Origin: an uncultured Gammaproteobacteria bacterium | GTDB lineage: Bacteria > Pseudomonadota > Gammaproteobacteria > HK1 | Length of the DNA: 64,000 nt | Assembly (NCBI GenBank): GCA_947258715.1 | Contig: CAMYJH010000023.1 | Span: 1-64,000, forward strand | Direction: 5' to 3' | In this document: piece after piece, positions 2,854 through 37,771 of the stretch | Position numbering within the stretch: position 1 is the first letter of the stretch | Layout of the letters: each line of letters opens with the position of its first letter | Notes under the pieces: model-generated | The model's database searches: none | Told to the model about the DNA's origin: nothing | Seen by the model: only the letters and a program-made list of their open reading frames with translations | Translations under genes and position numbers: made by a program

Positions 2854-3912
2854 CTATTGCCGGATGAACTGCCTCACGACCGGGACCAGCCCGCCTGCGC
2901 CTTGCTCCAGAATCCGCAATACGGGGATGCCGAGCTGCTCGCTGTACTCCCGCTGGTAGCGCCTTAACGTCTCGGGGGTGGCGCTCTTGTTGTTCAGGGT
3001 GACCGCCAGGACTCTGGCGCCGTAGAAAGCGACGAGCTCGATCTCGCTTTGCAGGGAGGGGATGCGATAGCCCTGCTTCTCGTAGCCCTCGAAGAACTCG
3101 CGCCCCGCGCCGTGCTGGAGGATGACCCCCTTGGCGTCGGCGGAGAGCAAAAACTCGGCGCCGCAGGGTCCGCTGGGGTTTCTCAGCGCCGCCTGGCCCT
3201 CGAGGATCATGACGTCGGGATTGAGCTCCCGGTCGCAGCTGACGATAGCGTGCTCCAGCTCTCCGCTGACGTAATCATTCACCACCGAGTCCAGCACGAA
3301 GCCGTAACGGGCACCCTGCATCCAGCCGGTTTGTCCGGTATAGATCATCTCCGCGCGAATACCCTCGGCGTTCAGCGCTTCGACCAGCAGCCGTGTGGTG
3401 GTGCGTTTACCCAGCGCGCAGTCGGTTCCGAGCACGGCAATACGCGGCGCGCGCACGGAATAGATGTCGCCTTCCCAGAAGTGCAGCTCGTGCTTGGGTT
3501 TGGGCTTTCTCAGGTCAATGAGTTCGACGTTTTTCTCGCGAGCAGCGCGGGCAATCTCCTGGTCGTCGGAAGCTGCGTCGTGCAGGCCGTTGACGATGGA
3601 CATGCCTTTGTCCACCGCTTCCAGGATCAGCTTGCGCAACTCTTCCGTCAGTCTGCCGCCGTGGGTGGCGATCCCGACGACACAGAAGTCCGGGGTGCTG
3701 CCGGCGAGGACAAGGGCGTCGTCAATGGAGGCGACGATGGGAATATCGCGATGCAGGCCGTCCAGCGCCTCGCCTGCATCCTGGCCCGCGAGCACCGGCT
3801 CGACCACGGCGAGGACGTCGAAACGATCGCTGCCGCGCACCAGCCCGTGGGCGGTCTTGCCATTGGGGGTCATATACCGGCCGTTGGCCAGCACGATGGC
3901 GGTATGTTTCAT
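2854..3912 (-). CDS. DUF1611 domain protein (DgcN-like)
   Basis: A 352-residue protein of the DUF1611 family. An N-terminal Rossmann-like domain (KHTAIVLANGRY..., VVGIATHGG around residue 105) is followed by a P-loop domain with GTDCALGKRTTT near residue 170 and TGQTGWMQGARYG. Some members (DgcN) are described as D-amino-acid N-acetyltransferases acting with the racemase DgcA; no dgcA gene is visible here. The start at 3912 (MKHTAIVL) is chosen because family similarity begins there; an in-frame ATG at 3930 and longer upstream reading are possible. It is divergent from the methyltransferase gene. Confidence 0.75.
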   Translation of the reverse strand: MKHTAIVLANGRYMTPNGKTAHGLVRGSDRFDVLAVVEPVLAGQDAGEALDGLHRDIPIVASIDDALVLAGSTPDFCVVGIATHGGRLTEELRKLILEAVDKGMSIVNGLHDAASDDQEIARAAREKNVELIDLRKPKPKHELHFWEGDIYSVRAPRIAVLGTDCALGKRTTTRLLVEALNAEGIRAEMIYTGQTGWMQGARYGFVLDSVVNDYVSGELEHAIVSCDRELNPDVMILEGQAALRNPSGPCGAEFLLSADAKGVILQHGAGREFFEGYEKQGYRIPSLQSEIELVAFYGARVLAVTLNNKSATPETLRRYQREYSEQLGIPVLRILEQGAGGLVPVVRQFIRQ

Positions 3913-4082
3913 GGGCGCCGGGAAGCTCATGCCTCGAGAGTTGTTGTTTTTGTCGCTATCGGCCGCCTTCCGGGAAGCAGCCGCCCGCACCGATCTACCG
4001 GGATCAATTCTTCGATGCAAGCAGCAGGCGCGCCAGAGAGGCGTTTGAACTGCCTTTATAATTGTCACTGGGGCCAGGGCGA

Positions 4083-5107: not shown

Positions 5108-8100
5108 ATGGCCAAAAACCACCCAGTCCCCGGCTACGCCGAGCTGCACTGCCTGTCCAACTTCAGCTTTTTAAGGGGTGCCTCACACCCGGAGGAACTG
5201 GTCCTGATGGCGGCGAAGCTCGGCTACGCGGCCATCGCCATCACTGACGAGTGCTCTCTGGCCGGCGTGGTGCGCGCGCACCTGGCGGCGAAGGAAGGCG
5301 GGATTCAGCTCATTGTCGGCAGCGAGGTGAAGCTTCGCGAGGGGCCGAAGCTGGTGCTGCTGGCGACTGACCGGGCAGCCTACGGCCGCCTCTCGGGGCT
5401 GATCACCACAGGACGCCGGGCGGCGGAGAAGGGCAGCTACCATCTCGGCCTCGAGGATCTGGACAACGGCCTCGAAGGCTGCCTGGCGCTGCTGATTCCC
5501 GAGGTTGGGAAAAGGGGTCGGACACCTTTTTCGAACACCTCTTTTCAAGTTCTACAACAGGGGAAAACGAAAAAGGGCTCTGACCCCTTTTTCCTTGCTG
5601 CGGATCCCGAAAAGAGCGCTTCGAAAAAGACGTCTGATCCTTTTTTCATCCGCTGGCTGAAAGAGCGCTTTCCCGAACGCGCGTGGATCGCCTTCGAACG
5701 CCACCTGGACGCTAGCGACGCACACACGCTACAAGAGCTTAAAAGTCTGAGCGCGCAAACCGGCCTGCCGCTGGTGGCCGCCGGCGACGTGCACATGCAC
5801 ATGCGCGCACGCCAGCCGCTCCAGGATACGCTCACCGCGATACGTCTGGGTCTGAAAGTGGCCGAGGCCGGCTTCAATCTGTTTCCCAATGCCGAACATC
5901 GTTTGCGCAGCCGCCCGAGGCTTGCCCGGCTCTATCCCCGTGCGCTGATGGAAGAAACCCTCGCCGTCGCCGCGCGCTGTCAGTTTTCATTGGACGAGCT
6001 GCGCTACGAGTATCCGGAAGAGATTGTACCGGTGGGCAAAACCCCCGCCGAGCACCTAAGGCAGCTGGTGGAGATCGGACTTCGCCGCCGTTTTCCCGGC
6101 GGCGCGCCGGAGAAGGTGCGGGTTTTGATCGAGCGCGAGCTGGAGCTGATTGCCGAGCTTCGTTACGAGCCTTACTTCCTTACCGTCTATGACATTGTCC
6201 GCTTCGCTCGCGAGCGCGACATCCTCTGCCAGGGGCGCGGCTCCGCCGCCAACTCCGCGGTGTGCTATTGCCTCGGCATCACCGAGGTGGACCCCGCGCG
6301 CATGGAGATGCTGTTCGAGCGTTTCATCTCCAAGGAACGCAACGAGCCGCCGGACATCGACGTGGACTTCGAGCACGAGCGGCGCGAGGAGGTGATCCAG
6401 TACATCTACGAAAAATACGGGCGTGACCGCGCCGCCATCGCCGCCACCGTGATCCGCTACCAGCCGAGGAGCGCGGTGCGCGACGTGGGCAAGGCGCTAG
6501 GACTCGCTCCGGCCCAGGTAGATCGTCTGGCGAAGTCGCTGGCCTGGTGGGACGGCAAGCGGGTGCTCAAGGCGCGCTTTAAGGAAGCGGGTTTGAATCC
6601 TGAAACTGCGGTGATGGGCAGGCTGGCGAAACTGGTGGGAACGCTGATCGGTTTTCCCCGGCACCTTTCCCAGCACACCGGCGGCTTTGTCATCGCCAGG
6701 GGGGCGCTTTCGGATCTGGTGCCGGTGGAGAACGCCGCCATGCCGGAGCGCACGGTGATCCAGTGGGACAAGGACGATCTCGACGCCTTAGGCCTGCTCA
6801 AGGTGGACGTGCTGGCGCTCGGCATGCTCACCGCCATTCGCAAGAGCTTCGGCCTGATCGAAGCCTATCGCGGCACGTCCCTATCCATGGCCACGGTGCC
6901 GGCGGAGGACCCAGCCGTCTACGAGATGATCGGCCACGCCGATACCGTGGGCGTGTTCCAGATCGAGTCCCGCGCGCAGATGGCCATGCTGCCGCGGATG
7001 AAGCCCAAGTGTTTTTATGACCTCGTGATCGAGGTGGCCATCGTGCGCCCGGGGCCGATCCAGGGCGGCATGGTGCACCCTTACCTGCGCCGCCGGCAGG
7101 GGCTCGAGCCGGTGAGCTACCCTTCCGAGGCGGTGCGCGGCGTGCTGGAGCGCACTCTGGGCGTGCCCATCTTCCAGGAGCAGGCGATGCAGCTGGCGGT
7201 GGTGGCGGCGGGCTTCACGCCGGGCGAGGCGGATCAGCTGCGCCGGGCAATGGCGGCGTGGCGAAGACGCGGGGGCTTGGGCCCCTTCGAGGCGCGGCTC
7301 ATCGACGGCATGCGCCAGCGCGGCTACTCGGAAGCGTTCGCCCGTCAGATCTTCCGCCAGATCGAGGGCTTCGGCGATTACGGTTTTCCCGAATCCCACT
7401 CGGCGAGCTTCGCTCTATTAGTATATGTGTCCGCCTGGCTCAAATGTCACAAGCCCGCGGCCTTCACCTGCGCGCTGCTGAACAGCCAGCCCATGGGTTT
7501 CTATGCGCCCGCTCAATTGATTAACGACGCTCGCCGCCATGACGTTGAGGTACGCGGCGTGGACGTCAACTTGAGCGCCTACGACTGCACCCTGGAACGG
7601 GGCGAGTGCGGCGCGCCCGCGGTGCGCCTCGGCTTTCGCATGGTCAAAGGATTGGCGGAAGAAAGCGCCGGACGCATCGTCTCGGCACGGATAGGAAAAG
7701 GGGTCGGTAAAAGGGGTCGGATCCCTTTTTCGAACGCCTCGCCCCGGAATCGGCAACAGGAGAGAGCGAAAAAGGGCTCTGACCCCTTTTGCCTTTTCGA
7801 TTCGGTGGAGGACTTGGCGCTGCGCGCAAAGCTCTCCCGCAGCGAGATGAAGCTGCTAGCCCAAGCCGGCGCGCTCGCCGGAATCGCCGGCCACCGCCAC
7901 AAGGCCGCATGGAAGGTCACGGGGGTGGAAGCGCCAACGCCGCTGATGAAGCAGCCGCGGGTGGCCGAGGGCACGCCGCTTTTGCGTTCACCCACGGAAG
8001 GCGAGGATCTCGTCGCCGACTATCAGACCATCGGGCTCACTTTAGGGCGGCATCCGCTGGAGCTGCTGCGAAAGCGTTTCGATCGCATGCGGCTCTGCAC

Positions 8101-8413
8101 CGCCGCCGACATCAACGTGACCCATCACGGCACTTTTGCCCGCGCCGCGGGCCTGGTGATCAACCGCCAGCGACCCTCCACCGCCAGCGGGGTGATCTTC
8201 GTCACCCTCGAAGACGAGACCGGTCAGATCAACCTGGTGGTGTGGCCCTGGGTGGCGGAGCGCCAGCGCCGGGTGGTGCTGCAAGCGCGATTGCTCGTCG
8301 CCAGCGGCACCGTCGAGCGCGACGGCGAGGTGGTGCACCTGATTGCCGGGCGGCTGGAGGACCACAGCCGGCTGCTGGGAATGCTGGAGACTAAGTCACG
8401 GGATTTTCAGTGA
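5108..8413 (+). CDS. dnaE2: error-prone DNA polymerase DnaE2 (ImuC) with two in-frame repeat insertions
   Basis: An 1101-residue alpha-subunit-type polymerase for damage-induced translesion synthesis. The PHP domain is N-terminal (YAELHCLSNFSFLRG..., ITDECSLAG). The palm holds PPDIDVDFEHERRE near residue 416 and LKVDVLALGML near 565, supplying the catalytic aspartates, and a C-terminal OB fold contains GVIFVTLEDETGQINLVV. A LexA box precedes it, but no imuA or imuB lies in the window, so the usual cassette is absent. Two insertions of about 30 residues (around residues 135-180 and 867-895) share KRGR-PFSN and KKGSDPF; they come from the same palindromic DNA repeat and fall in linkers, leaving catalytic motifs intact. 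Confidence 0.93.
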   Translation: MAKNHPVPGYAELHCLSNFSFLRGASHPEELVLMAAKLGYAAIAITDECSLAGVVRAHLAAKEGGIQLIVGSEVKLREGPKLVLLATDRAAYGRLSGLITTGRRAAEKGSYHLGLEDLDNGLEGCLALLIPEVGKRGRTPFSNTSFQVLQQGKTKKGSDPFFLAADPEKSASKKTSDPFFIRWLKERFPERAWIAFERHLDASDAHTLQELKSLSAQTGLPLVAAGDVHMHMRARQPLQDTLTAIRLGLKVAEAGFNLFPNAEHRLRSRPRLARLYPRALMEETLAVAARCQFSLDELRYEYPEEIVPVGKTPAEHLRQLVEIGLRRRFPGGAPEKVRVLIERELELIAELRYEPYFLTVYDIVRFARERDILCQGRGSAANSAVCYCLGITEVDPARMEMLFERFISKERNEPPDIDVDFEHERREEVIQYIYEKYGRDRAAIAATVIRYQPRSAVRDVGKALGLAPAQVDRLAKSLAWWDGKRVLKARFKEAGLNPETAVMGRLAKLVGTLIGFPRHLSQHTGGFVIARGALSDLVPVENAAMPERTVIQWDKDDLDALGLLKVDVLALGMLTAIRKSFGLIEAYRGTSLSMATVPAEDPAVYEMIGHADTVGVFQIESRAQMAMLPRMKPKCFYDLVIEVAIVRPGPIQGGMVHPYLRRRQGLEPVSYPSEAVRGVLERTLGVPIFQEQAMQLAVVAAGFTPGEADQLRRAMAAWRRRGGLGPFEARLIDGMRQRGYSEAFARQIFRQIEGFGDYGFPESHSASFALLVYVSAWLKCHKPAAFTCALLNSQPMGFYAPAQLINDARRHDVEVRGVDVNLSAYDCTLERGECGAPAVRLGFRMVKGLAEESAGRIVSARIGKGVGKRGRIPFSNASPRNRQQERAKKGSDPFCLFDSVEDLALRAKLSRSEMKLLAQAGALAGIAGHRHKAAWKVTGVEAPTPLMKQPRVAEGTPLLRSPTEGEDLVADYQTIGLTLGRHPLELLRKRFDRMRLCTAADINVTHHGTFARAAGLVINRQRPSTASGVIFVTLEDETGQINLVVWPWVAERQRRVVLQARLLVASGTVERDGEVVHLIAGRLEDHSRLLGMLETKSRDFQ
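5509..5592. repeat. in-frame palindromic repeat element in dnaE2, copy 1
   Basis: About 83 bp with two hairpin arms: AAAAGGGGTCGG-ACACCTTTTT (5510-5531) and AAAAAGGG-CTCTGA-CCCCTTTTT (5570-5592), separated by a middle containing CGAAC-CCTC and CAACAGG. The same arms with the same spacing (58 bp from arm-1 start to the CG before arm 2) recur at 7708-7791. A further arm-like hairpin, AAAAAGACGTCTGATCCTTTTT, lies at 5622-5646. All are in frame with dnaE2. Confidence 0.85.
7708..7791. repeat. in-frame palindromic repeat element in dnaE2, copy 2
   Basis: The second copy of the 83-bp element: arm 1 AAAAGGGGTCGG-ATCCCTTTTT, middle with CGAACGCCTC and CAACAGG, and arm 2 AAAAAGGG-CTCTGA-CCCCTTTT. A partial arm-1 duplication (GAAAAGGGGTCGG) lies just before it at 7694-7707. 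It separates IVSAR from the DSVEDLALRA helix of dnaE2 and keeps the reading frame. Confidence 0.85.
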
Positions 8414-8828: not shown

Positions 8829-9835
8829 TACGCGTGCTTGCGGACCGCTCGCGTGCGCCGCAGCGGCATCCGAATGAGACCCCCAAGGAACAGGTGGCGC
8901 AGATTCTGGCCTTGAAGCGCCGCCATCCGCACTGGGGACCGGTGACCTTGCGCGATTGGTTGCGCCGGGAGCGGCCCAACCAGGCGTGGCCGGCGGCGAG
9001 TACGTTCGGTGCGGTCCTGAAGCGTCACGGGCTGGTGCGCCCGAGGCGCCGCCGACGCCACACGCCGCCGCACACGCAACCCTTTGCCCGGATACGGGCG
9101 CCCAACGATACCTGGAGCGCGGACTTCAAGGGGCACTTTGCCCTGGGCGATGGGCGCCGCTGCTGGCCACTGACCGTAAGCGACAACTTCAGTCGCTATC
9201 TGCTCTGTTGCCAGGGTCTCTACGGCCCAAAGCTCAAAGCCACACAGCGCGGGTATGAGCGCTGTTTCATCGACTACGGCCTGCCGCGCGTCATCCGTAC
9301 CGACAATGGCTTTCCCTTTGCCGCGCCGGCCCTGGGAGGCCTGACGCCGCTCAGTGTGTGGCTGTTGAAGCTCGGCGTGCTTCCGGAGCGCATTGCCTCG
9401 GGGAAGCCGCAACAAAACAGCCGGCATGAACGCTTGCATCGCACCCTCAAGGCAGCCACCGCCACGCCACCGAAGGCCAATCTCAGTGCGCAGCAGCGCG
9501 CTTTTAATCGGTTTCGTCCCGAATACAACGAGGACCGCCCGCACCGAGCCCTGGGCCAGGGGCAGCGTCCGGCGGACTGGTATCGGCCCTCGCCGCGGGC
9601 CTATCCGTCGCGCCTGCCGGAGGTGGTCTACCCCGACGCGTACGCAGTGCGCAAGGTGAAGTGCGGTGGCTATATGAAGTGGCATGGGCAGATGGTCTAC
9701 GTCACCAAGTATTTGCTCGGGGAACATGTCGGCCTTAAGCCGCTGGAACACGACCGCTGGGAGCTGTACTTCTGCCAATTGCCATTGGGCGTCTTCGATG
9801 AAAGACTCGGCAAAATCATCCGATGCCCCGGATGA
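8807..9835 (+). pseudogene. IS481-like transposase lacking its N-terminal helix-turn-helix
   Basis: A 342-codon frame with an integrase-type DDE core: D in WSADFKGHF, D in RTDNGFPF, E in HERLHRTLK, plus the family segment YNEDRPHRALGQ. Homology starts at DRSRAP (about codon 13), which in complete elements follows a helix-turn-helix region of roughly 40-50 residues. Here that region is replaced by codons read from the REP-like palindrome. The catalytic domain is therefore intact but the DNA-binding start is missing, and the gene is probably inactive. It could be translated from the new ATG as a shortened protein. Confidence 0.75.
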
Positions 9836-33113: not shown

Positions 33114-34772
33114 GTGGGACACGCTGACGTGATCCGACTCGCGTGGTGGGTGCTGCCGGCGCTGCTCGCGCTGACGACGCTGGTGTACCTGCCGGGGATC
33201 CCCGGACCGTCGTTGCTTGACGACCAGAACAACCTCGGACTGCTGGCTGAGGTGCAGGCGGGGCGCCTCGGCGGTGCCGAGTACGTGCTGTCCTCCGGCG
33301 ACGGCGGCATCGCGCGGCCGATCGCGCGGTTGAGCTTTCTCGTCAACTGGTGGCTGGCCGGCGACGACCTGCGCGCGTTCAAGGCCGTCAACCTCGCGCT
33401 GCATCTGATCGGCGGGCTGCTGGTGTTCACCTTCGTGCGCCAGCTCGCGCGCGCGGACCGGCACCTTGCCGGCCGCGACACCACGCTCGCGCTGCTGGTC
33501 ACCGCCACGTGGCTGCTCGCCCCGCTGTTGGTAAGTACCGTCCTCTACACCGTGCAACGCATGGCGCAGCTCTCGGCGCTGCTGACCCTCGCCGGGCTGT
33601 GCGCCTATACCGCCGGGCGCTCGCGCGGGCGCGACTGGCCGATCGCCGTCGCGTTCGTGCTGTGCTGGCCGCTCGCGACGCTCAGCAAGGAGAATGGCGT
33701 GCTGCTGCCGCTGCTCGCGCTGCTGGTGGAGATCTGGTTCTTCGCGGGCGCAGCGCGCCATCAGCGTTTTCGCCGCCTCCTTCTCGGGCTCACCGCAATC
33801 CCAGCCGCGCTGGTACTCGCGCGCATCGCGTGGGACCCGGCGTGGCTGATGGCCGGCTACCAGGAACGCGACTTCACGCTCGGCGAGCGACTGCTCACGC
33901 AGCCCCGAGTGCTGCTCGACTACCTCGGCAATCTGGTGCTCGCGCCGGGCGCGAGTCCGCTCGGGCTGCTGCGCGACGACGTGGCGCCGTCCACCGGCCT
34001 GCTCGAGCCAGCGGGCACGGCGGCCGCGCTGCTCGCCTGGGCCGCGTTGCTCGCGCTTGCGCTGGCGTCGCGCTCGACGCCGCTCGCCGGCGCCGGGTTC
34101 GGCGTGTTGTTTTTCGTCGCCTCGCACCTGCTCGAGGCCGGCGTGTTCCCGCTCGAGCTCTACTTCGAGCACCGCAACTACCTGCCTGCGGTGGGCGCCC
34201 TGTTTGCGGCCGGCGTGTGCGTGATCTTGCTCGCACGGCGGTACCGCGCGCTCGCCGCCGGCATCGCGCTCGGGTTGGTGCTGGTGATGGCGTTGCTGAC
34301 TGCGCAGCGCGCTTGGCTGTGGCGCAGCGATCTCTCGCTATACCAGCACGCGGTGCACACGCATCCGCGCTCGGCGCGCGCGTGGCTGGGGCTCGCCGGC
34401 GTGCTGCTCCAGTCCGGACGCTTCGAGAGCGGGCGCACGGCGCTTGACCGGGCGCAGGCACTGCTCGGGCCGGACGCGCGGCTCGCAATCGCGCTGCAGG
34501 AGCTGGCCGCCGCCTGCGTGCTCGACCGACCACCTCCCGAGATCACTTGGCAGCGGGTCGCCGGCGCAGGTCGCATCGGCGCCGACCTGCACACCGTGAA
34601 CGCGCTCGCGTGGCTAGGCGGCGCGATCACCTCGGGAGAGTGCGACGTGCTCGACCGGCAGCGACTTGCAACCATCCTGGCCCGTCTCGATGTAGCGCCC
34701 GCGCGCGGGCGCGCGGGCCGCCTGCGCGATTCCCATCTCGACACATTGCGCCGCGCGCTCTCGGCGCACTGA
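33114..34772 (+). CDS. multi-membrane protein, GT-C glycosyltransferase-like, with TPR-like tail
   Basis: A 552-residue inner-membrane protein with about ten hydrophobic helices in the first 400 residues and a soluble tail with ARAWLGLAGVLLQSGRFESGRTALDRAQ, a TPR-like helix pair. PSLLDDQNNLGLL in the first loop recalls the acidic DD-type loop of GT-C glycosyltransferases and TMTC/DUF1736 proteins, so transfer of a lipid-linked sugar is plausible but not shown. The gene is visibly richer in G+C than its neighbours and follows directly on a palindromic repeat cluster, which suggests acquisition. The start is GTG 33114; a GTG at 33129 is also possible. Confidence 0.7.
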   Translation: MGHADVIRLAWWVLPALLALTTLVYLPGIPGPSLLDDQNNLGLLAEVQAGRLGGAEYVLSSGDGGIARPIARLSFLVNWWLAGDDLRAFKAVNLALHLIGGLLVFTFVRQLARADRHLAGRDTTLALLVTATWLLAPLLVSTVLYTVQRMAQLSALLTLAGLCAYTAGRSRGRDWPIAVAFVLCWPLATLSKENGVLLPLLALLVEIWFFAGAARHQRFRRLLLGLTAIPAALVLARIAWDPAWLMAGYQERDFTLGERLLTQPRVLLDYLGNLVLAPGASPLGLLRDDVAPSTGLLEPAGTAAALLAWAALLALALASRSTPLAGAGFGVLFFVASHLLEAGVFPLELYFEHRNYLPAVGALFAAGVCVILLARRYRALAAGIALGLVLVMALLTAQRAWLWRSDLSLYQHAVHTHPRSARAWLGLAGVLLQSGRFESGRTALDRAQALLGPDARLAIALQELAAACVLDRPPPEITWQRVAGAGRIGADLHTVNALAWLGGAITSGECDVLDRQRLATILARLDVAPARGRAGRLRDSHLDTLRRALSAH

Positions 34773-35077
34773 CAAATGCAGGCTTAGCCCGGCGCCGGAT
34801 CGCCTCCGGGCTCCGACCGCACGAGTTCCAGGAAGTCCGCGCAGAGCAGGGATCGCCGGCGGTTAGCTGCCAACAACACGCTTTAATAGAACACGATGTC
34901 GTGCCGGAATATTCGCCCAACCACTTCGCCGTGGGCATCGAAATCCGGGGCGGTGATCGGGTCGACCAGTGCCACTACGCCACCTTCGGCCACGATCCGG
35001 AACACCGGCCCATCACGGCCACGACGAGCCTGCTGATGGCGGCACAGATCAGCCGCAGAGCGATACTAGCTTTCTAG
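34773..35077. other. stretch without a convincing gene
   Basis: An open plus-strand frame ends at TAG 35077 and reads VPEYSPNHFAVGIEIRGGD, which looks partly protein-like, but its upstream part runs antisense through the previous gene. The cupredoxin-like fragment continues in the same frame right after the stop. Probably remains of a broken gene. Confidence 0.35.
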
Positions 35078-35167
35078 CAGACCGCGATGGCGCCGGCGGG
35101 AGGCACATCGATGGTGAAGTTGAATCCGGAAGCTCCCGGCACTTATGTACTGGTGGCTACTAAGAGG
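35078..35167 (+). pseudogene. possible fragment of a copper nitrite reductase-type cupredoxin domain
   Basis: Thirty codons read QTAMAPAGGTSMVKLNPEAP then GTYVLVATKR. The pattern QT-x3-PxGG-x4-F-x-x-E-x-PGTYVLVDH is typical of the second cupredoxin domain of NirK. The copper ligand His expected after VLVD is replaced, and a palindromic repeat arm interrupts the sequence 15 bp later. The match is short and rests on memory of the family only. Confidence 0.35.
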
Positions 35168-35181
35168 GCGCCCAGCAAGGA

Positions 35182-35207
35182 CGAAAAAGGGCTCTGAAGC
35201 CTTTTTC
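35182..35207. repeat. single arm of the dnaE2-type palindromic repeat
   Basis: CGAAAAAGGGCTCTGAAGCC then TTTTTC differs at two positions from arm 2 of the dnaE2 elements (5568-5592 and 7767-7791). It shows the repeat is dispersed and not limited to dnaE2. The DNA from 35208 to 35536 holds no gene that could be supported. Confidence 0.7.
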
Positions 35208-35536
35208 TGCAACCTCTCGCGGCCCGTCTACTGCGGACTTCGATACGCGCACCGGATCCCCATTTTGCTGGTGACTGGCCTACCTGTGCTCGCACTCGAT
35301 TCGGATGCCGCCCTTGCTGCTCGTCCGGCGCCTGGTCCGCAACTTGATGCCCTCTTTGTGAGGGGGAGTAGGAGCGCCGGGCACGAGGACCGAGCCTCCG
35401 TCGCGGGTGATTAGCGGTCGTGATCTGCGAACGGGTCGACAAAACCATGCCGAGGGGACGAAGTAAGGGAAGAAAGCTCGCCGTCGACTGTTGTAGTAAG
35501 TCAAAGGGTTCTTTTTTCAACCTTCTGGAGGTCATG

Positions 35537-35962
35537 ATGAGCAAAAAAACGACGAGTCCGGATTCGGTGGCCATCCCCCGCCGCGCCGCCCTTTCCCGCC
35601 TGGGTCTGGCGATTTCCGCCATGTACGTGGCACCTGCCCTGATTACCCTCAGCGATGCGGCCGCCAAAGGTGGTTCCGGCGGTGGTTCCGGCGGTGGTTC
35701 CGGCGGTGGTTCCGGCGGTGGTTCCGGCGGTGGTTCCGGCGGTGGCTCCGGCGGTGGCTCGGGTGGCGGCTCCGGAGATTCATCGGGCCGCAGCGGCAGC
35801 TCGTCGGGAAGTGGACCCAGCCACGGCAGTGGAGCCAGTGCTAGTGGGCCCAGCCACGGCAATGAACCCGACCACGCGAGTGGAGCCACGAGCCCGAGTG
35901 GCCCCACCAGTCCCAGTGGACCGTCGAATAGCCTGTCGAACTCAATTCCCGAAAACGGCTGA
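35537..35962 (+). CDS. short exported Gly/Ser-repeat protein, candidate modified peptide
   Basis: A 141-residue protein. A basic start with PRRAALSRLGLAISAMYVAP looks like a twin-arginine-type signal or anchor, followed by ALITLSDAAAK. Residues 45-80 are eight near-perfect GGSG repeats, and the C-terminus is rich in S, G, P, H, N and T, with several GPSHGN/GPTSPSGPS motifs, but lacks Cys. Start 35537 is chosen since GGAGG lies 5 bp before it; ATG 35534 is adjacent. The next gene, 97 bp downstream, encodes an HprK-like/PqqD fusion, as found with ribosomally made, modified peptides. Its role as that protein's substrate is inference. Confidence 0.65.
   Translation: MSKKTTSPDSVAIPRRAALSRLGLAISAMYVAPALITLSDAAAKGGSGGGSGGGSGGGSGGGSGGGSGGGSGGGSGGGSGDSSGRSGSSSGSGPSHGSGASASGPSHGNEPDHASGATSPSGPTSPSGPSNSLSNSIPENG
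35669..35776 (+). repeat. 12-bp tandem repeat encoding GGGS
   Basis: Eight to nine units of GGCGGTGGTTCC, the first six almost identical and the last ones drifting (GGTGGCTCG, GGTGGCGGCTCC). Identity at synonymous positions points to recent expansion by slippage. Confidence 0.9.
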
Positions 35963-36059
35963 GCGAGGTAGGTTAATCCGCACTCCCGCGCCCGGCCCCG
36001 CCCCAGGGGTCGGACGCGGGCTTGCTTGTGCTACCGTCTAAGTCCAATCGTATGGCCCA

Positions 36060-37292
36060 ATGCCGGTGACGCATCGTATTACGCTTCACTTTGAAGGCCT
36101 TTCGCAACCGTGTGTGCTCGAAAATGCACCGGAGCTCTACGCCGCCTTGGGACAGGTATTCAACGGCTGGAGGATGGACGAGGTCGCTGGCGGCGCACAG
36201 CGGCCGGTGCTGACAGTGCGCCATTCAGACTATGGCTACCGGATCGAAGGAGAATGGGTCCGGCGCCCCATTGTCCTCGCGGACCGGGTCGACGCGCTCT
36301 GCGCGTTCATCGCCGAACTGGTGCGCGCCTGGGTGGAGGACAACCCGAATCTGCTTTGCCTGCATGGTGCAGCGGTCGAGCTCGGCGAACGGCTGGTGGT
36401 GTTTCCGAGCACCTATCGGGCGGGGAAAAGCGTGCTGACCGCCTGCCTGGCGGCTGCCGGCGCCGTCGTGCACACAGACGACGTTTTGCCGATAGACCCA
36501 GCCCTGGGTGTCACTCGAGCACCGGGCATTGCGCCTCGATTGCGTTTGCCTGTGCCCGACGTGCTCGACCATCAGATTAGGCGCTTCATCGACGCGCGCA
36601 CGGTGGTGCGCGGCAAACGTTACGCCTATGTAGACCCCGGGCCCGGTGCGCTCGCGAGCCACGGGGAGAGGGCACGTATCGGCACTCTGGTGTTGTTAGA
36701 CCGAAGCCCCGGGCCCGAGCCTCAGATGTTGCCCGTCGGCCGCAACGAGATACTGCGCCAGGTAATCTGGCAAAACTTCGCGCGCGCGGCGCCGGCACCT
36801 GAAATCCTCGACGCGCTCCACGCCATCGTTGCCGGCGCCCAGTGCTACCGACTTCGTTACTCGCGTGCGGATCAGGCTGCCGCATTGCTCATGGACGCTG
36901 CCGCGTCGTGGTCATCTATGGTTGCCACGACTCCGGCGGCGGTACTGGAGTCGCGAGCGAAATGCGAGCGCGCCGCCGCGCCGCATCCTGGCGACGGTCG
37001 GAACGGCTGCTACCGGCGCGCAGCGGGGATCCACGAGCGGCGCGTCGACGGTGAGTGCTTCTTGGCCGATGCCGAGGGGGCACGAATTCACCACCTCAAT
37101 CCGATCGGGTCCGCGATCTGGCAGCTGTTAGTGGAGCCGGCCAGCATCGAAGATCTCGTCGCCACGCTCGGCGAAGCATTCCCGGAGATCAATGCGAAGC
37201 AGCTGCGAGCGGATGTCTCGGCCTTCGTGACCTGTATCGCCGAGCGCGGCCTCGTTCACGTCAACCCCGAGCCTGCTCGAGCGTCAGAATAA
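36060..37292 (+). CDS. HprK-like kinase fused to a PqqD-type recognition domain
   Basis: A 410-residue cytoplasmic protein. Residues about 95-280 resemble the HPr kinase-like family (LCLHGAAVELGERLVVFPS, then YRAGKSVLTACLAAAGAVVHTDDVLPID: a P-loop with AGKS but with Ser at the usual first Gly, and a DD pair). Residues about 325-405 form a PqqD/RRE-type winged helix (HERRVDGECFLADAEG, HHLNPIGSAIWQLL, LVATLGEAFPEI, VTCIAERGLV). Known HPr-rel-A systems encode such a kinase and a PqqD-like protein as separate genes, often with a nucleotidyltransferase, which is missing here. A variable linker (ESRAKCERAAAPHPGDG) joins the domains. The likely partner is the Gly/Ser protein upstream. Confidence 0.78.
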   Translation: MPVTHRITLHFEGLSQPCVLENAPELYAALGQVFNGWRMDEVAGGAQRPVLTVRHSDYGYRIEGEWVRRPIVLADRVDALCAFIAELVRAWVEDNPNLLCLHGAAVELGERLVVFPSTYRAGKSVLTACLAAAGAVVHTDDVLPIDPALGVTRAPGIAPRLRLPVPDVLDHQIRRFIDARTVVRGKRYAYVDPGPGALASHGERARIGTLVLLDRSPGPEPQMLPVGRNEILRQVIWQNFARAAPAPEILDALHAIVAGAQCYRLRYSRADQAAALLMDAAASWSSMVATTPAAVLESRAKCERAAAPHPGDGRNGCYRRAAGIHERRVDGECFLADAEGARIHHLNPIGSAIWQLLVEPASIEDLVATLGEAFPEINAKQLRADVSAFVTCIAERGLVHVNPEPARASE

Positions 37293-37317
37293 GCTTCCAT
37301 TGGGTGGAGAGACAGGA

Positions 37318-37383
37318 GACGGGGACATTCAGAGTTCCTAGGCTACTGATTTTAAGAAAGGGCTCTGTCCCCATTCTTGTTTT
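37318..37383. repeat. palindromic repeat copy with GGGGACA/TGTCCCC ends
   Basis: GACGGGGACATTCAGAG and, 26 bp later, AAAGGGCTCTGTCCCCATTC form an imperfect inverted repeat. The GGGCTCTG core matches arm 2 of the dnaE2 repeats. It sits between the HprK-PqqD gene and the STAS-like gene. Confidence 0.55.
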
Positions 37384-37414
37384 TTGGACTTCTTTTTTGC
37401 GCCCCCGCGTGTAT

Positions 37415-37771
37415 TTACTCGGTCAGCCAGGCCAGCGCCTGATCACGCCCGTCGATGGGGAACAGGCGCACCGGAACGTCCCCGAGTTCTTCGGCAAGCT
37501 TGTTCACCTCTTTCTCGCAGCGATGGTCACCGAGCACCGCAACGCGTTCAAATTCGGACCGGTGCGCTATGCGAAAGTGGAAGGCATGCGCAGCCGCGAC
37601 GTCATCCCAGCCCTCGAAGTCCTCCCAATCCAGTAACGCGCGTACCGGGACGATCGGCCCCAGCATCTTTTCGAACTCTGGAACGAACGACTGATAGTCG
37701 GAATCGCGCAGCATTCCCGTCATCTTGATGCCGACCACACCATCTTCGTTTATGGGCATGAGCTTGAACAT
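37415..37771 (-). CDS. STAS/SpoIIAA-like domain protein
   Basis: A 118-residue protein of the SpoIIAA-like/STAS fold (PF11964 type): VVGIKMTGMLRDSDYQSF, VRALLDWEDFEGWD, HFRIAHRSEFERVAVLGD, and VPVRLFPIDGRDQALAWL. Such single-domain proteins are usually cytoplasmic and of unclear role, often beside membrane or stress genes. It is convergent with the HprK-PqqD gene, and a palindromic repeat lies between them. The segment 37772-38174 upstream holds no recognisable gene. Confidence 0.85.
   Translation of the reverse strand: MFKLMPINEDGVVGIKMTGMLRDSDYQSFVPEFEKMLGPIVPVRALLDWEDFEGWDDVAAAHAFHFRIAHRSEFERVAVLGDHRCEKEVNKLAEELGDVPVRLFPIDGRDQALAWLTE

Follow-up and report, generated by a model that had tools for sequence, protein, structure and literature searches.

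The window, by which we mean the whole 64,000-nt stretch of gammaproteobacterial DNA analysed here, contains a gene for a small, repeat-rich and probably exported protein followed by a gene for an enzyme that joins an HprK-like kinase to a PqqD-type recognition domain (RRE), and the question raised by this pair is what the enzyme does to its neighbour. A first-pass annotation had proposed that the small protein is phosphorylated or nucleotidylated before export, and both genes, the 141-residue protein with its RR-type signal and GGGS repeats and then the fusion, lie on the forward strand where it had placed them. We consider it probable, at roughly 60%, that the fusion is a self-contained enzyme which, guided by its RRE, phosphorylates Gly/Ser-type tracts ahead of export.

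The gene pair in the window

The small tagged protein (141 aa, 35537..35962; all features given here are on the forward strand) is made up of a leader, GGGS repeats and a Ser/Pro/Gly-rich tail. A ribosome-binding-like site read from the sequence, GGAGGT (35527..35532), precedes an ATGATG that gives two candidate starts, 35534 or 35537. The leader alignment delimits a leader core, RRAALSRLGLAISAMYVAPALITLSDAAAK, at 35579..35668, and this alignment, along with the comparison with LPP leaders (see below), singles out YVAPAL (35624..35641), a YxxPxL sequence, as the putative RRE-docking motif. The GGGS units are encoded by a 12-nt tandem repeat (35669..35775) of 8.9 copies with 94% matches. A match of the protein to PF22807 (E 0.036, below the cut-off) was rejected as low-complexity similarity, as was a match of the tail at another locus, L012, to NF038253.

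Folding of the 97-nt gap between the two genes (35963-36059) predicts a GC-rich hairpin at 35985..36020 (z of -2.1 in the window). Hairpins were predicted in 8/8 gapped loci that were folded (the window, L004-L008, L011 and L012), with z values against mononucleotide shuffles from -1.3 to -4.1, and may raise expression of the substrate over that of the enzyme. The hairpin of L011 is terminator-like. An Rfam search of positions 34700-37500 gave no match, and a promoter scan gave nothing exceeding chance.

The fusion (410 aa, 36060..37292) was delimited by Pfam, by fold and by a structure model built from 6 sequences (mean pLDDT 80.1, pTM 0.77). Its HprK-like kinase domain (residues 97-288; 36348..36923), assigned by fold comparison, resembles HprK/P in the model with a Z of 13.9 and an rmsd of 2.4-2.8 over 132-136 residues, although the PEPCK fold gives a slightly higher yet looser match to this first domain (Z 14.7, rmsd 4.3). 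The HprK_rel_A profile TIGR04352 matches residues 97-277 below threshold (42.6 bits, cut-off 200). The RRE (PqqD) domain (residues 316-404; 37005..37271) is indicated by Pfam (PF05402, E 1.1e-13, residues 332-399), by its sequence relatives and by its fold, which in the model resembles the lasso RRE TbiB1 (Z 13.0, rmsd 2.0, 88 residues); the closest solved chains by sequence are TbiB1, LppB (9x8z), PbaB1 (9x90) and TfuB1. The first-pass annotation, which had described a kinase fold of the HprK type and had staked its reading on a PqqD-like C-terminal fold, is borne out on both domains. A fold match is by itself no proof of function.

The residues expected of a kinase are largely kept in the 22 loci where a kinase and an RRE follow in this order in one chain (hereafter, fused loci). 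His102 (36363..36365), Lys123, Ser124, the GKS of the P-loop, Asp140-Asp141 (36477..36482) and Arg215 are each found in 22/22, and in a profile alignment to the true HprK of the same genome (L108; E 6.8e-5, probability 63.6) His102 coincides with the His of the HG pair, GKS with GKS and the two aspartates with the DD. The P-loop itself is a variant, STYRAGKS (residues 117-124; 36408..36431), in which the first Gly of GxxxxGKS is replaced. That Gly is kept in only 3/22 loci and an Arg occupies the P-loop in 21/22; the sequence RAGKS is present in 20 of the 22, with RSGKS and HAGKS in one each. From the kept residues, kinase activity of the fusion is likely; with so unusual a P-loop, it is not assured. 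The deviation would also suit an export chaperone without chemistry, in which the RRE holds the signal peptide and a degenerate ATPase domain uses nucleotide for release, comparable to a redox-enzyme maturation protein on a Tat substrate. However, a degenerate domain of this kind fits poorly with the invariance of His102, Lys123, Ser124 and both aspartates across all fused loci.

Pocket residues of the RRE were assigned by hand, through alignment to LppB and PbaB1 and the contacts in their structures. LppB Asp70, which forms a hydrogen bond with the leader Tyr, maps to Asp385 of the fusion (37212..37214), invariant in 22/22. The pocket leucines map to positions 346, 370 and 398, which are Leu in 21/22, 19/22 and 19/22 respectively, and PbaB1 Phe83 maps to Phe389, a position held by Leu or Ile in 21/22.

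Pairing of enzyme and leader gene across genomes

Our sample comprised 369 genomes of the class, 398 of the phylum and 61 of one order, together with four plasmid loci (H1, H4, H5 and H7) fetched among 8 matches. The scan of the genome collection returned five relatives of the fusion (L004-L008) that are 40-50% identical to it along most of the length, and a small leader protein is encoded immediately upstream of it in 5/5. A leader gene adjoins the fusion on its upstream side in all 22 fused loci, with gaps of -20 to +160 nt, so the pairing is not due to chance. Co-occurrence elsewhere was the other point on which the first-pass annotation had rested its case, and a recognition domain and kinase beside a likely exported substrate, as it had supposed, recur at every one of these loci.

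A held-out test carries most weight here. A profile made from the first six leaders was run against the 2420 ORFs (at least 30 aa) of 16 new loci; its 12 matches with E<1e-3 were the neighbour gene in 11/11 loci (L060-L070) and one tandem copy, and the next best ORF had an E of 0.7. The leader gene was also adjacent in 3/3 further fused loci. In the class draw, 7/369 genomes were positive for the enzyme (E<=1e-20) and exactly these 7 for the leader (E<=1e-10); in the phylum draw, the enzyme (E<=1e-35) was found in 8/398 and the leader (E<=1e-10) in the same 8. No leader was detected in the enzyme-free genomes of either draw (0/362 and 0/390), but the profile used for the draws, A5, was built partly from genomes later found and shares sequences with them, which is why the held-out test weighs more. 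Weaker A5 matches (E 2e-6 to 9e-6) correspond to long RR-signal proteins in G149, G187 and G745, and to a 122-aa protein lacking the YxxP motif in G564.

These counts bear on the simplest explanation, a mere shared operon, with the leader acting as an ordinary Tat signal whose residues are conserved for export alone. Such a signal is credible in itself, as the leader has an RR and a hydrophobic stretch, TatC was found in 13/13 genomes checked and two generic RR-signal proteins match the leader profile at about 3e-6. An ordinary signal would nevertheless hardly be missing from 362 and 390 genomes that lack the enzyme, nor would its motif be retained where the hydrophobic stretch is broken or at the C-terminus of a protein (see below), and we regard this explanation as very improbable.

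The pairing extends to L016/L065, in which kinase and RRE are separate overlapping frames and the leader gene is still present. Another group of loci (L071, L126, L127, L128 and L129) has split kinase and PqqD genes, or PqqD alone, by RegB/RegA-like two-component genes; an adjacent leader was found in 0/5 of them, and in G393, one of the split-domain genomes, a leader protein is encoded about 40 kb away. In the plasmid record of Paracoccus marcusii CP157 (L098), a frameshift after YAAP parts the leader from the tail of the small gene (3540-3935); on another P. marcusii plasmid (L101) this gene is open.

An all-against-all comparison of the ORFs in a set of 22 loci that takes in the reversed fusions L072 and L073 gave, among the matches listed, no third gene conserved beyond close-relative synteny (L004-L006; L062/L066-L068; L063/L064; L072/L073) and no dedicated peptidase or transporter conserved across loci. 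Genes for ECF sigma and anti-sigma factors were seen, among the matches listed, at L004-L006 and on Paracoccus and Shinella plasmids; as they are confined to these, an ECF sigma link was rejected as a general feature. Many Pseudomonadota encode a kinase/docking-domain enzyme next to a small, tagged, repeat-rich exported protein, and as far as sequences can tell this points to a hitherto undescribed chemical marking of proteins before export.

The leader motif and the export signal

The small proteins share the leader pattern RR..L..LG...YxxPx[L/M]. Among the adjacent leaders, YxxP is found in 22/22 and YxxPx[L/M] in 21/22; an alignment of 19 leaders shows no variation at RR, L, LG, Y, P and L (19/19), but this set was partly chosen by motif expression, which makes the positional sample of adjacent genes the fairer one. 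The tails vary and include GGGS, GGGT, PSV, SRPxY, His/Arg-rich and Gly/Lys-rich types. Ser is present in 28/29 tabulated tails, at 6-32%, and one tagged tail (L042:488) contains none, so that the Ser/Thr-richness which the first-pass annotation had mentioned is not a general trait. With a Ser content ranging from 0 to 32% over the 29 tails, the target residue of a phosphorylation is one that we infer. A second, unlinked leader-like protein, RRSMFSRLGLMASIAVTAPLLVAL, is encoded in G374 (L087:3167-3442); it has an acidic Ser-rich tail and VxxPxL in place of YxxPxL.

For the majority of the likely substrates, the leader also serves as a signal peptide of the RR type and ends in an AxA-like sequence. 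The classical Tat consensus is SRRxFLK; all aligned leaders have the RR, but without this consensus. The putative docking motif overlaps the signal peptide in most cases, which again would suit the chaperone without chemistry described above. A pure export guard would, however, have no need of the motif outside signal peptides, and this is where it survives, beside a Gly/Ser-rich or GGGS tract, in several proteins. We consider the chaperone unlikely.

L004 (12614-13303), L005 and L006 each encode a second protein that begins with a signal-like stretch of its own. The motif, RRKALARLGL(E/G)(D/E)GTPY(E/Q)(S/P)PVLLTLSQAQA, lies further inside and is followed by a Gly/Ser tail; the part of it that corresponds to the hydrophobic core of a signal contains charged residues. 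The motif is likewise internal at L104, with RHR in place of RR. A FecR-domain protein at L102 (1564-2766) and L103 ends in the motif (TVLARLG...YQAPAL.TLSQA), which is preceded there by a GGGS tract. Tagged subtilases are encoded beside the pair on Paracoccus and Shinella plasmids (L098:2207-3472, L099:2040-3377 and L101:2203-3468), and that of Shinella has a Gly/Ser-rich stretch ahead of the protease domain. The motif is kept in each of these cases and a Gly/Ser-type tract in nearly all, while the remainder of the protein differs. Judged from these sequences, drawn from a small number of lineages (three related MAGs and two genera), the docking motif is separable from the export signal. The subtilase genes adjoin ECF sigma factor genes, with an anti-sigma-like gene where seen. 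Neither the YxxPxL motif in the leader, nor its decoupling from export, nor the tagged subtilases had appeared in the first-pass annotation.

The decoupled cases suggest a wider reading, which we put forward tentatively. A portable tag, LxRLG...YxxPxLxTLS with a Gly/Ser tract, could be a module attached to many kinds of exported protein (small repeat proteins, subtilases and FecR-domain proteins). Whether N-terminal, internal or C-terminal, it could recruit one fused RRE-kinase to phosphorylate the tract before export, and the enzyme would double as an export gate for tags that are part of a signal peptide; the whole might then be a general pre-export marking in Pseudomonadota and not a natural-product pathway.

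Known relatives and a proposed mechanism

Linear polyphosphorylated peptides (LPP) of Bacillota were recently described (Nat Commun 2026, PMC13381572). According to the passages of that paper considered here, LppK, the HprK-like kinase of LPP, multiply phosphorylates a Ser in the core of its precursor and the leader residues Y and P are important to RRE binding, and these two observations are our main ground for expecting phosphorylation. As in the LPP systems of those passages, the window combines an HprK-like kinase and an RRE with a precursor that has a constant YxxP leader and a variable C-terminus; moreover, the RRE is near LppB and retains the Tyr-binding Asp. In contrast to LPP, kinase and RRE are one chain here, the leader doubles as an RR-type signal, the tails are long and of low complexity, and there are tagged subtilases and FecR-domain proteins. 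The LPP leader consensus YxxPxVLxHQxIxFETxxS is matched only in its YxxPxL part, and no SipW-like peptidase, NTP transferase or MsbA-like/ABC transporter was found in the 10 ORFs scanned of 39 listed around the pair. The text of that paper makes no mention of Pseudomonadota, Proteobacteria or twin-arginine. The system of the window is most likely LPP-like in its working, yet without the features of an LPP cluster and most of the leader consensus.

A likeness to paeninodin-type lasso systems, as these passages describe them, lies in the leader, a B1-type RRE and an HprK-like kinase; the motif given there for leaders of discrete lasso RREs is [Y/W]xxPx[L/V/I/A/F/Y] (PMC13381572). The same 10 scanned ORFs of 39 listed near the fusion include neither an Asn-synthetase-like cyclase nor a B2 protease. 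With the DUF2063/DUF2282 systems the window shares an RRE and a precursor bearing a signal peptide, but these are reported to lack a specific recognition motif, and a kinase goes unmentioned in the passages considered (PMC12710340). Among full-text papers under open licence, we found none on HprK-PqqD fusions with signal-peptide leaders, none that treats HprK together with PqqD, none on HPr-rel-A and none that joins twin-arginine signals with RiPP RRE leader peptides.

HPr-rel-A systems (TIGR04352/TIGR04353) have a kinase of the same broad family and a PqqD-type domain. The window fusion differs from them in that its kinase and PqqD domains fall below both TIGR cut-offs (15.4 bits for TIGR04353, cut-off 35), are fused and have no NTase partner; the first-pass annotation had rightly reported the lack of a nucleotidyltransferase nearby (none in the 10 neighbouring ORFs scanned of 39 listed). 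Its contrast with HPr-rel-A as a system of separate domains, however, does not stand, since the HPr-rel-A-like loci L072-L075 and L100 are also fused, in the opposite order (PqqD-HprK) and beside an NTase. Small Gly-rich proteins with TPP-type leaders (RR...TPPAxTLLL, e.g. RR...TPPAVTLLL) occur at 3/4 reversed-fusion loci (L072, L073 and L075, not L074). The YxxP leader profile does not detect these leaders (E about 2), and they probably form a sister class. L072 and L073 are also near nucleotide-sugar genes.

The reversed fusions bear on a further alternative, in which docking is the same and the modification another: nucleotidylation, or a phospho-Ser that an unlinked enzyme converts further, to a glycosyl or another group. 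It would be in keeping with the NTP_transf_5 protein beside the reversed fusions, with a TPR membrane protein upstream in the window and with the NTP transferase that LPP and paeninodin clusters include, according to the passages considered (PMC13381572). Against it, no NTase was found beside the fused HprK-PqqD loci and, among the matches listed, no third gene is conserved past close synteny; we think it quite unlikely. Of the first-pass interpretation, the pairing of enzyme and substrate is retained, whereas neither nucleotidylation nor the separate-domain contrast nor a general Ser/Thr-richness finds support here.

RRE-guided phosphorylation, which we prefer, would proceed as follows. In the cytoplasm, the C-terminal RRE would bind the YxxPxL of its neighbour's leader in the way known from lasso and LPP RREs. 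Docking would place the Gly/Ser-type tract within reach of the HprK-like domain, and Ser, perhaps Thr, of the tract would be phosphorylated there. Since the signal would be masked while RRE-bound, export, presumably by Tat, would come after modification; signal peptidase would then remove the leader and release a phosphorylated low-complexity protein. This reading predicts that the leader Tyr and Pro determine modification. If it is true, the polyphosphorylated peptides described of late have a counterpart in Pseudomonadota, the use of RREs widens from short peptides to exported proteins, proteases included, and a signal peptide doubles as the ligand of its modifying enzyme. An enzyme and likely substrates can also be assigned in loci now labelled merely 'PqqD family protein' and 'hypothetical protein', including loci of the cultured bacteria Paracoccus marcusii and Shinella.

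Two other observations concern the same genome. A lasso-peptide-like cluster (L086, G000:C46:12500-30528) has a precursor at 9018-9215 (reverse strand) with the leader motif YRRPKL, together with an Asn-synthetase-like protein, an ABC transporter, an HprK-like kinase, two methyltransferase-like proteins and PqqD. In the window, a palindromic element that codes for GKRGRxPFSN...KKGSDPF occurs twice, both times in frame, within a DnaE2-like ORF (5108-8413), at 5503-5650 and 7689-7795.
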